The notes under the pieces were generated by a model. That model made no database searches, was not told the origin of the DNA, and saw only the letters and a list, made by a program, of their open reading frames with translations. Position numbers and translations under genes: made by a program. DNA of 64,000 bases from Antennarius striatus (taxonomy: Eukaryota; Chordata; Actinopteri; Lophiiformes; Antennariidae): assembly GCF_040054535.1 (NCBI RefSeq), contig NC_090791.1, positions 15,188,327 to 15,252,326 of the forward strand, read 5' to 3'. Shown in pieces: positions 40,994 to 46,376 of this stretch. Each line of letters starts with the position of its first letter. Position 1 is the first letter of the stretch.

Positions 40994-43900
40994 GAGGCCA
41001 CAGAGCAGGGGAAAATCCACAAAATAATGAGTTACTCACAGCGTGCACAAGCGGAAGGACAGAGATGCGTCTTGGCTCCTATTAAAACTGGAGACACTAA
41101 GATTATGCCTGAAGGTTGGGACCACAGACACAAAGATATCTGCATTTATACATATTGCAGTGAATTTACTGATTGATTGACCCCTGCTCCCCACAGATTT
41201 ACATCATAGGGCCCTCGCCTATACCTTGGACAGCAGACAGAGGCAACAACTTAATGACTCTTGGGTTTCACTGCCTATGTTTAATCACCAGGTACTAGGC
41301 TTACACTTTTGAATGACTTGAATGCATGCACTGCAAGAGGTGACGTGATTCATAAATGAATGAAGTCTGCTTCAATTTCTTTTTGTCAGGAACCTGGGTT
41401 TAATAAACATCATGGCTCCGCACCTCAGATCTCTGTCACAGAGAGTACTCCAGATAGAAACAGGAAGCTGCTGCTGGTACAAGCCAACCAATTAAAAGTT
41501 CCCACTAATACCAGTTCTGTAAAGGTACCTTCTGACCCATCATGTCATTCTTGTTGCTTTCATGGTTAGAGTTTTCTTTTATTGCTAGACTTCATCTTCA
41601 TTCCTGCTGCTTTTTCTCAACAGACAGAATTACCCGATGACCAGCAGATGTTAATAAATACAATCAGTCACGGTCAGCGTGGACGCATGGACGACCAGCG
41701 CTGTTCGATGGATCCTAGCAAGAGTGCACCCTGCACACCCAAACACACAGACACAAAACCTATTGCAAATACAAGCTCAGGTGAAATTTAATGTATCCCT
41801 ATCTGTACATATTTCCTTAATTATCTCCATTTGCAGACTTGTTACAGACAGCTTTTCCCAAACCTAGATTGAATTTTAAGTTTTTACTGTCTATTTAACC
41901 TTTTTTCCATTTTCATCTGTCTGAGTTTAGATTCTGAGATGTTCTTCAGCCTCTTGGCCAACACACAGAGCAATCGACTCAATGACCAGCGTGTCTCTCT
42001 TCCATCATTGCCGGGATTACAGAATGAGAACACAACTTCTAATGCAGGAGGAGAGTCAAGCTACTTGTGTTACATGGTCTCTAAAGTTCAGGTCAATACT
42101 TGTATTTTTTTTTGGATGAAAAAAAGGGATTATTATGTTTCAGCAGAATCAGAAAACATCCTGATTATTGTTGAGAAAATCTTAAATATTCATGACTTTC
42201 ATCCCAATTCATTTTCAGGGGTCCAGAATGGATGACCAAAGGTGCTCGCTGCCTCAAGTACTAAATGTGGAGAACCCATGTTCGCCAAAAACAGATAAGT
42301 CTGCTTCTACATTAGGCTCTCCACGTTCAGCCTCCTTCAGTCCCAGCTCAGACATAGAACGACCAAAGAGTAAAGAAAAAGCAGCTCAAAAACAGGTATA
42401 TAATGTCACTTTTATGATATTATATTATTTAAACACACACACACAAACACACACACACACACACACACACACACACACACACACACACACACACACACAC
42501 ACACACACGCACACGCACACGCACGCACACACACACACACACACACACACACACACTGTGTTTACATACAATTATTATGTCGGATTTATATTGACTGACC
42601 TGAATATGTAATTTTCATCTTTGTTCCCCACATCTAGGTCATGACTGCAGCTGAACAGGAAGATTTGTGGACCCTTATGAGTAATTCCCAGCGCGGACGA
42701 ATGGACGAACAGCGATGTCAATTAAATATTAATTCCCAGTCCCCATCCACTCACAAGCCCAGTCAGAAAAATTTGTCCCAAGGTTAGAATAGTAATTTAT
42801 TTTCTAATTGTCTGTTCTTACAATGACAGTATTTCTGTCCTTTCCTCTCAGTGCATTGTTTTGTTTTTCATGATCACAGGTCCAGATACTGACAAGTTTT
42901 TCAACATGCTGGCAAACTCTCAGGGTAGACGGCTTGATGACCAACGCATGTCTCTTCCTTCATTGCCAGGAATACAGAATGGAAGCACCTCATCAGCAGC
43001 TACTGCTGCAGAGATGGATGCAAGTTATTTGTGTTACATGGTCTCCAAAGTCCAGGTTGGTCACATTATATAGCATGGTGTAAATGAAAATTATCCATCT
43101 GTCTGTCTGTCTGTCCGTCTGTCTGTCTGCGCACACACACACACACACACACACACACACACACACACACACACACACACACACACACACACACACACAC
43201 ACACACACACACACACACACACACACACACACACACACACACACACACACACACACAGTGCATACAAGTGTACAGGTCGTCCTGAACCTACGAACAAAAC
43301 TGGTTCCAAAAGGTTGTCCGTAAGCTTAATTGTTCTTAAGTCGTTATTTGTTCAATGTCAAACTGTAATCACCATTGTGATCGTTTAAACGCCATTAGTA
43401 CTCTAAATATGAGAGTACTATTCTTCAAGATTTACCAGAAAAAAAATTACAGGACTTAAGAAAACACAAAATGAAATACAATCCAGGTACAAGCAATTTT
43501 TAGTAAAGTTCTCATTTATATATTGGTTTAAAAAAATATGAGGAAAAATAAAATTTGAGTTTATGTCATTTCACTCCACTTTACGTCTGTCCACCACAAA
43601 TATTGGGTTCCTAAAATAACTAGAAAATCGTTAAAAGCAAATAATATTATAATACCTGGGCACTATAACTGCAGAGGAGATGAAACTCTCAGACACAAGA
43701 TTTATCGGGCTTTATTCATCTCTTTACGCTGGAACTCTGGAGACACAACTCCAGCTCATAACTAATTCACTAACTCTCGTTCGCTTTTCCTAAGGCTTCC
43801 CACATCCCAACACATGAGCAGCCTAAGGCTCAGGGCAACATCATAATAACAGTCTGTATTAACACAGCTTATCACAAAACCATCTTATTGTACAATATGT

Positions 43901-46376
43901 AAGAATTAAGACATATAATCATATTAAAATATGATTGTGTGGAGAGAGGAATGAAGCAGTTAATACCCAGGTATTACAACATTATGTGCTTTTAATGATT
44001 TTTTTTGTGATTTTACGAGTCCACTATTTGTGGTGGACAGACCTAATGTCTAGTGAAATGACATATCCTTGAATTTTATTTTTCCGTGTACTCTTTTAAA
44101 AAACCGACATACCTGTATATATTGAAAACGACTTAACTCGACACGACCTATACCTGTATTTTATTTCATTACGTGTTCTTTTTATGCCATGTATTTATTT
44201 CTGGAAAGTGTTAGGGAATAGTACTTTCTTATTCAAAGTAGTAATGGGATTTAAATGACGTCAAATATCTAATATAGATTGAAATTAAATAAATAAAATT
44301 TTACAAATAATTCATGTTACGAATAACCTCTCAGAACAAAAAGTGTTTGAGAACCTGTAGATAATATAAGCACTATATGGAATTGTATACAAGTAATAGT
44401 TTGTATAACAGCTAATCTCATTTTCCACCAACAGGGGTCAAGGATGGATGAACAAAGATGTTCTGCACCTCATATCTTCCAAAATTCTATGGATAGTATT
44501 TCACCCACTCAACGTAAAGATCATGGACTTTCATATACATGTGATAAGTTTCTGCAGAGGTCATCATCCTTGAACCATGCCAAAGCTGACCACCATCAGA
44601 TGGTACAATATCAACTAAAATCAATTATTAAAATGACACCAATCATGAATAAGGAAATTCACCCTTCAGTCTTTTACAGAAAAATGTGTTGTTTTTTAGA
44701 CTTTGTCCTCCTGGTTGTTTTGCTGACCATTGAAACATTGAGAGTTGTACTCCCTTTTCTTTAAATTGCTTTCAGGAGGTATCTCCAATTGAACAGGAGC
44801 AGTTCCTAAAAATGATCACTCACGCCCAAAAAGGACGTATGGACGAACAACGTTGCTCTTTGCCTTCTGATAGTAATATTCCTGTCTCACCTGCACACAA
44901 TGGAAGCGCTTTAAAGCATGTACCTACAGGTTAGGCAGACACACACTCGGTTCATGTATGTTTTTTCTCTGTCTAACATGTCACAGACATGACTTTGGGT
45001 TTTTCACAACAGGTGCAGATGCTGACAAATTCTTCAACATAATTTCCTCCAGTCAGGCACGACGGCTAGACGATCAGCGAGTTGCACTTCCTTGCTTACC
45101 AGGGATAAGTGAGAATACCAAAAGAAAAGAGGGTGGTAAAAATAAGACTGGACGATCAGTAAGTTACCTGCATTTAAATTGTAGTTGGTACCAACTTGAG
45201 CAATACTGTCAAATACAGTATTGCTATGTTTTATTCCTTGTTGTTTTTTAAGCCTCATTCACATAAAGTTAGTGGTAATGTTGAGATGTTTGTTGATAAT
45301 TATCCTTGTACCCACAATCGGATATCAATTCATGAATTACTGTGGTTAGATATTAGATATTGACCCAATACTTGACAGCTCAACTGCCTGTTTCTCTCCT
45401 GCAAGGCTTCTCCATTACACATCACTGTGACAGAAAGTACACCAACAACACCAAGGAAAGATTGTTCCAGACCTAAGTCAAAACCCCAAAGGACCAACGC
45501 AGAATTGGGTTCCCCCAGAGCCATCCAAAAATCTGCTTCATTCACCCCTGAAACAGAATATCAAAAGACAATCAATTCCCCAGCCCAGGTAAATGTTTGA
45601 CTTGATGTTGGTCTGTTGGTCACAGATAGTTTTTGTTTATAACCATTAAAGGGTTCATTTGGGGGCAAGAACAGTTCTTGCAGCTCATTGCGACTTTCAC
45701 TGCTGTTTTATTTCTGAAGTTCTTGAGTGTTTACAATGCACCAACAATGAATCAAAGGTTTAATCTAAAACACATCTTACTGAACAAACGCTTTTTCTTT
45801 GCAGATGACAGTGAGGGTATCCATGAGCTTCACACCACAGCAGGTAAGCTTAGCCACAGCCAGTGTATGCTCTAGGCCGAGGGAACAGTATTGCTTAATG
45901 CATGACGTAGCTTGATTAGTGTTTATATGACTTTTCTGCCAAAGGGAGACAAGAAAATGGATCTTCCGTGTGGATTCCCAGAAGTCTTCCTCACTCTCGG
46001 AGCCCCTGGAGATAATCTTGTGATCCCCCTCAGCCCAGCACCTGGCAGACCCTTATCTTTAAACTTAAACCTTGTCCCAAAAGAAAATGTTAAGTCCAGG
46101 CAGCACTCTCCAAGCTGTGCAAGTCCAAGAAAACCATCTCCGTCTTCCAACCCAGGAGCAACCAGTGAAGCACATCCTGAAAGTTTGTGCCTACGTGAAC
46201 AGAGGAAGCTGAGCAGCACTCTCAGTCCACATGAAGACTGCTGCTCTCTGGTCGAGAAAGTTCACACAGCCCAACTGCTAAAGACGGTAGCTCAAGATGG
46301 ACAAAAATGGAAAGAGGAACAAGGAAAAGGAAAAGGAGGTGGAAAGAAAGATAAGAAGAATAGTGGCAATAAATGA
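40994..46376 (+). CDS. pcp2: pcp2-like protein with expanded GoLoco array (5' end uncertain)
   Basis: Fourteen exons: 40994-41114, 41197-41291, 41390-41524, 41624-41780, 41931-42091, 42219-42395, 42638-42782, 42880-43055, 44435-44602, 44776-44929, 45013-45158, 45406-45588, 45805-45843, 45945-46376; 763 codons with stop. The first in-frame ATG is 41027-41029 (751 aa); the reading frame is open upstream, so a coding first exon may exist. GoLoco motifs bind G-alpha-i/o-GDP and block nucleotide release. Cores in order: EGQRC, NDSWV (lost), DDQRC, NDQRV, DDQRC, DEQRC, DDQRM, DEQRC, DEQRC, DDQRV. Human PCP2 has two (EGQRC then DDQRV with SLPGFQ), matched here by exon 1 and by the SLPGIQ/SLPGLQ exons. 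There are no TPR repeats, which argues against GPSM1/2. The C-terminus is a Pro/Ser-rich segment and a Lys/Gly-rich tail. AATAAA spans the last codons and stop (46368-46373). Confidence 0.85.
42432..42556. repeat. (CA)n microsatellite in pcp2-like intron 6
   Basis: Nearly pure AC dinucleotides with a few CG interruptions near 42508-42530. Confidence 0.9.
43098..43257. repeat. compound (TCTG)n(AC)n microsatellite in pcp2-like intron 8
   Basis: Eight TCTG/TCCG units (43098-43129) followed by more than 60 AC units. The long Cys/Val and His/Thr frames across it are artefacts. Confidence 0.9.
43273..44357. mobile_element. terminal-inverted-repeat element, 1085 bp, inserted in pcp2-like intron 8
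   Basis: The left end CAGGTCGTCCTGAACCTACG, with GGTTCCAAAAGGTTGTCCGT inside it, and the right end ATAACCTCTCAGAACAAAAA ... GAGAACCTG are diverged inverted repeats, flanked by TA on both sides (43271-43272, 44358-44359). A partial relative is at 190-590. There is no transposase frame. TA targets suggest the Tc1/mariner/pogo superfamily. Confidence 0.7.

Follow-up and report, generated by a model that had tools for sequence, protein, structure and literature searches.

Eight GoLoco motifs from a duplicated exon cassette in a pcp2-like gene of Antennarius striatus

How does a gene that resembles pcp2 come to encode a long row of GoLoco motifs, and is it pcp2 at all? The question is raised by a locus in Antennarius striatus (GCF_040054535.1, contig NC_090791.1), where we analyzed a stretch of 64,000 nucleotides, called the window below (contig positions 15,188,327 to 15,252,326; all other coordinates are those of the window). 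A first-pass annotation, made from the letters alone, had proposed a pcp2-like gene at 40994..45158 with eight to ten GoLoco motifs in a single open frame of many exons. The gene has 14 exons on the + strand, with a coding sequence from 41027 to 46376 (2256 nucleotides including the stop, 751 amino acids). All 13 introns have a GT donor and an AG acceptor and there are no internal stops, which bears out the open frame. The interval first proposed covers exons 1–11 and omits exons 12–14, and the 762-codon translation that came with it equals the 751-residue model plus 11 codons ahead of the ATG at 41027.

Eight GoLoco motifs from a duplicated exon cassette

A Pfam-A scan of the 751-residue model returned GoLoco (PF02188) as the sole family above its cut-off, with eight matching stretches that together score 169.5 bits (E 7.9e-51). 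When ten motif-sized peptides were scanned singly, eight matched PF02188 and seven exceeded the curated cut-off of 25.1 bits. The D/E-Q-R triad, whose arginine contacts the nucleotide, is retained in 8/8 motifs. The core pattern occurs eight times in the protein and three times in total across 20,000 shuffles of it, which rules out a chance origin of the matches. The presence of eight GoLoco motifs is thereby confirmed; the further two that the range of eight to ten allowed for, in exons 1 and 2, are decayed copies.

The exons that encode the motifs form a cassette. It opens with an A exon (phase 0 to 1); next comes a B exon (phase 1 to 0) that also encodes the first half of C, and a third exon (phase 0 to 0) supplies the other half. 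These intron phases recur from unit to unit. Exons 4–6 and 7–9 are complete A-B-C cassettes, exons 10–11 are an A-B pair, and exons 1–2 are a decayed A-B pair. In unit 2, exon 4 (41624..41780) carries motif A (core DDQR, 26.7 bits), exon 5 (41931..42091) carries motif B (NDQR, 38.5 bits) with the first half of C, and exon 6 (42219..42395) carries the second half of C (DDQR, 37.7 bits for the spliced motif). Unit 3 is made up of exon 7 (42638..42782; A, DEQR, 21.4 bits), exon 8 (42880..43055; B, DDQR, 39.1 bits, with the first half of C) and exon 9 (44435..44602; second half of C, DEQR, 34.1 bits for the spliced motif). Unit 4 has exon 10 (44776..44929; A, DEQR, 28.8 bits) and exon 11 (45013..45158; B, DDQR, 36.9 bits), the latter without a C half. 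Both C motifs are complete only once exon 5 is joined to exon 6 and exon 8 to exon 9. The donors at these junctions, GTCAAT at 42092-42097 and GTTGGT at 43056-43061, have a pyrimidine at +3 and are a possible point of splice control.

Exon 1 (41027..41114 from the ATG, the exon possibly starting at 40994) holds a decayed A-type motif with the core EGQRC, and exon 2 (41197..41291) a decayed B-type motif with the core NDSWV. The exon 1 peptide had no Pfam match, and neither peptide gave a GoLoco match in the single-peptide scan. Their descent was read from local alignments between exons, each compared with 2000 shuffles. The likeness of exon 1 to exon 7 and to exon 10 was reached by none of the shuffles in either case; for exon 2 the counts were 2/2000 against exon 5, 14/2000 against exon 8 and 0/2000 against exon 11. 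A control comparison of exon 1 with exon 2 gave 200/2000, no better than chance. The linker in exon 3 (41390..41524) resembles the tail linker in exon 12 (45406..45588), sharing ISVTESTP (1/2000), and the tail of exon 6 also resembles exon 12 (6/2000). Three other linker comparisons were at chance: the exon 9 tail against exon 12 (430/2000), the tails of exons 6 and 9 against each other (1146), and exon 3 against the exon 6 tail (1732). The array is an in-frame tandem duplication of the A-B-C exon cassette. Beyond it, the short exon 13 (45805..45843) and exon 14 (45945..46376), which includes the stop, complete the C-terminal tail. Exon 14 matched only itself in the genome, and a search of the C-terminal exons against the PDB gave a single match at E 0.28, which we regard as chance.

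Divergence between the motif blocks was estimated by Nei-Gojobori counts, as synonymous (dS) and nonsynonymous (dN) values, with Fisher tests on rounded counts. Units 2 and 3 (75 codons) differ by a dS of 1.76 and a dN of 0.21 (Fisher 1.3e-10), and units 2 and 4 (51 codons) by a dS of 2.35 and a dN of 0.40 (1.9e-5). For units 3 and 4 (51 codons) dS is beyond correction, with uncorrected synonymous and nonsynonymous proportions pS of 0.76 and pN of 0.28 (1.3e-6). The C motifs alone (24 codons) gave a dS of 1.89 and a dN of 0.07 (1.5e-6), and the smallest dS among the blocks, 1.12, separates exon 5 from exon 8 in motif B. The motif copies are old and kept under constraint, because synonymous divergence between units is high and amino-acid divergence low. 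A recent tandem duplication or a misassembly is rejected, since synonymous sites are near saturation and the direct repeats reported are derived from exons, are CA runs, or are a 27-base pair within intron 8. CA runs are present in introns 6 and 8. Since divergence between the copies is saturated, the array is probably common to other fishes, and many fish genomes probably carry it, perhaps annotated but undiscussed.

Where translation starts is uncertain. Three donors of the form GT[AG]AG lie in 39900-40994, after 40241, 40570 and 40681. Ahead of the donors after 40570 and 40681, the frame contains no ATG once its last stop is passed, and with either of these translation would begin at 41027, within the decayed first motif. 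For the donor after 40241, an in-frame ATG lies 11 codons ahead of it. The start would thus be at 41027 or at an upstream ATG, depending on the donor.

Relation to PCP2 and to GPSM-like genes

Our next question was whether place and architecture point to pcp2. Pieces of a Munc18 gene lie upstream on the same strand (24035..28830, +, with the gene extending beyond). When joined (~24.0-28.8 kb), they scored 523 bits against STXBP2 (4cca), up to 468 against STXBP1 and 308 against STXBP3. Mammalian PCP2 (L7, GPSM4) is likewise a GoLoco protein encoded close to STXBP2: PET100, PCP2, XAB2 and STXBP2 are placed together on human 19p13.2 (PMC10393222), and Pcp2 is drawn among the genes around Stxbp2 and Retn (PMC4467842). 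As in PCP2, GoLoco motifs occur here without a TPR, RGS or RapGAP domain; a TPR match was absent from the 751-residue model and from 10/10 upstream open reading frame (ORF) pieces.

The whole genome (548 Mb, 42 contigs) was searched with the GoLoco family on unspliced frames, so that counts are lower bounds. At least 17 matches were found, four of them within the pcp2-like gene; just four of its eight motifs were caught because unspliced frames were read. A query with the B exon gave nine matches among the best candidates scored, the top three in the window and the others weaker, at GPSM-like loci. Neither search found a second pcp2 locus among its best-scored candidates, and a second copy is rejected for now; the remaining GoLoco loci resemble GPSM or RGS genes. 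The upstream stxbp2, the GoLoco-only protein and the lack of a second locus in these searches support the view, already taken in the first-pass annotation, that the gene is a putative fish pcp2 (GPSM4/L7). Motif number, two in mammalian PCP2 and eight here, we then take as a difference within the family and not as its defining feature.

GPSM1 (AGS3) and GPSM2 (LGN) carry TPR repeats. They share with the fish gene the motif classes 1–3 and an intron within motif 3, and differ from it in having N-terminal TPR and four GoLoco motifs, whereas the fish protein has no TPR, no motif of the fourth type and eight motifs in all. Six further GoLoco loci of the same genome were examined with the core pattern. 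Three of these, L009, L010 and L011, we take to be GPSM1/2-like, L012 GPSM3-like, and L013 and L014 RGS-like. The pattern found four motifs each in L009 and L011, three in L010, four in L012 and one each in L013 and L014; two extra matches, one each in L012 and L013, appear unrelated. In 3/3 GPSM1/2-like genes the third motif has an intron directly after Q, before GSR or SSR, and the phase-0 intron in motif C of the pcp2-like gene (Q|GSR) falls at the same residue. As read from genomic sequence, L009 and L010 have phase 1 at the end of the exon for their first motif, as does the pcp2-like gene. In L011 one open stretch with no visible intron holds motif 2 together with the first half of motif 3, the pcp2-like arrangement, whereas in L009 these two are apparently on separate exons. 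By ungapped BLOSUM62 scores, 6/8 motifs are nearest the expected GPSM class. The cassette thus appears to share an origin with GPSM and to be equivalent to GoLoco motifs 1–3 of GPSM1/2.

Has such an expansion been seen before? In the top-ranked part of our search results, we recognized no description of a fish pcp2 with many GoLoco motifs in the open-licence literature. Mouse Pcp2 is described with an ATG in exon 2 and a frame that continues via exon 3 to exon 4, an order consistent with A exon, B exon and tail, while the mouse protein of ~16 kDa contrasts with the 751 residues, added C-type motifs and longer tail of the fish gene (PMC5243870). The teleost piccolo b gene (pclob) is similar as a fish synaptic gene in which a domain-coding exon was amplified in frame, giving 8 to 16 copies; the zebrafish survey that reports it covers 1598 duplicated genes and gives gains of three or more domains in four genes (PMC3484663). 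It differs in that its domains are zinc fingers, its repeated unit is one exon and it is one of two ohnologs, whereas the pcp2-like gene repeats a two- to three-exon cassette at one locus. A change of GoLoco number within a family is also seen in echinoid AGS, which has TPR repeats and four motifs: an added first motif is tied to a new function, and in sea urchin to altered cell-division behavior (PMC6706577, which also describes the TPR repeats of LGN).

Possible function and alternative explanations

We consider it likely that the gene is a genuine pcp2 whose duplicated cassette encodes a multi-site binder of G-alpha-i/o in its guanosine diphosphate (GDP) state; binding, stoichiometry, tissue, isoforms and effect are what we infer. 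Duplication of an exon cassette like motifs 1–3 of GPSM1/2, in tandem and in frame, would have placed eight GoLoco motifs, linkers and a tail on one polypeptide. Each motif would most likely bind one GDP-state G-alpha-i/o (or transducin-type) subunit and slow nucleotide release, and a holder with several such sites would compete with G-beta-gamma for several G-alpha subunits simultaneously. The array may thus set the speed and gain of Gi/o signaling; examples would be signaling to Cav2.1 channels of Purkinje cells or in the mGluR6 pathway of ON-bipolar cells. A PCP2 splice variant in ON bipolar cells is the subject of Xu 2008. The proposal of a multi-site G-alpha-GDP holder is made by analogy with PCP2, which is reported to modulate GDP release (PMC5243870), with GPSM2, which is reported to load and stabilize multiple G-alpha-t-GDP (PMC9581579), and with GoLoco proteins as a family of guanine nucleotide dissociation inhibitors (PMC10943482). 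More tentatively, and with the balance of probability somewhat the other way, PCP2 of the fish lineage might be a polyvalent scaffold for up to eight G-alpha-i/o-GDP per chain, with avidity, local storage or clustering at the synapse beyond that of a two-motif PCP2.

Several points weigh against a genuine multi-site PCP2. The exon 7 motif by itself (E 1.7e-4) is under the curated cut-off, and the two C motifs rely on splicing at the pyrimidine-+3 donors. Exon 10 is nearest a third GPSM motif and exon 11 nearest a fourth, so the proposed common origin of the cassette rests mainly on introns. With synonymous sites near saturation the copies are undatable, and orthology is drawn from place and architecture rather than from a phylogeny. 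A beta-tubulin gene stands between stxbp2 and the pcp2-like gene, and the RETN neighborhood is described as dispersed and not conserved in other fishes (PMC4467842).

The array could instead be a store of alternative exons from which splicing picks two to five motifs per mature protein, so that no chain ever holds eight G-alpha. Mouse pcp2 is reported to undergo alternative splicing, with several splice forms (PMC5243870), and the two pyrimidine-+3 donors lie within the array. A single contiguous skip within exons 2–13 can be made in 78 ways, of which 42 preserve the reading frame, with 0 to 8 motifs remaining; loss of exons 6–8 or of exons 7–9 leaves five, because the C motif re-forms at the junction or stays whole. 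Frame-keeping skips are expected of any cassette-built gene, however, and therefore carry little weight, the phases make no cassette mutually exclusive, and the complete chain stays open and has GT-AG at each intron border; we find this reading rather unlikely. That most of the array is non-functional padding, in which a few motifs bind and the rest persist by drift, would agree with the decay of exons 1 and 2 and the low score of exon 7, but dN is far under dS in 3/3 comparisons between units and likewise between the C motifs, and the core is kept in every copy, which makes such padding very unlikely.

The fit of motif classes and introns to GPSM GoLoco 1–3 might also mean that the gene is a GPSM1/2-like paralogue that has lost its TPR part, not a PCP2 orthologue. 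The cassette is possibly common to PCP2 and GPSM by descent, so this likeness fits both readings. Against a paralogue stand stxbp2 upstream on the same strand, distinct GPSM1/2-like genes elsewhere in the genome, and a model and upstream ORF pieces free of TPR, with no motif of the GoLoco 4 type; we judge it highly improbable. For the preferred reading, a duplicated pcp2, the interest lies in the fact that GoLoco proteins differ chiefly in motif number, so that an eight-motif pcp2 would be a natural experiment on Gi/o signaling. The exon-by-exon modularity of the copies would allow a direct test of motif number in a laboratory fish, by removal of units.

Surroundings of the gene

An Rfam scan of the window gave no match. 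Upstream of the stxbp2 pieces, 21477-21866 (+) is an open stretch of 130 amino acids with no Pfam or PDB match. The beta-tubulin exon is at 36505-37626, and 37938-38096 (+), probably a partial copy, scores 22.1 bits, under the cut-off, against the beginning of the tubulin C-terminal domain. Between tubulin and pcp2, 39218-39900 (+) resembles a Tc1/mariner-like transposase remnant (HTH_Tnp_Tc3_2, E 8.9e-4, below cut-off; the family was assigned partly by eye). Downstream of the pcp2-like gene is a piece of a myosin heavy chain gene on the − strand. Within intron 8, 43330-44350 is a dispersed element whose halves match each other inverted and whose copies are 66-84% alike genome-wide; with 40 of 1693 candidates scored, at least 97 matched stretches were found, including itself and both orientations.

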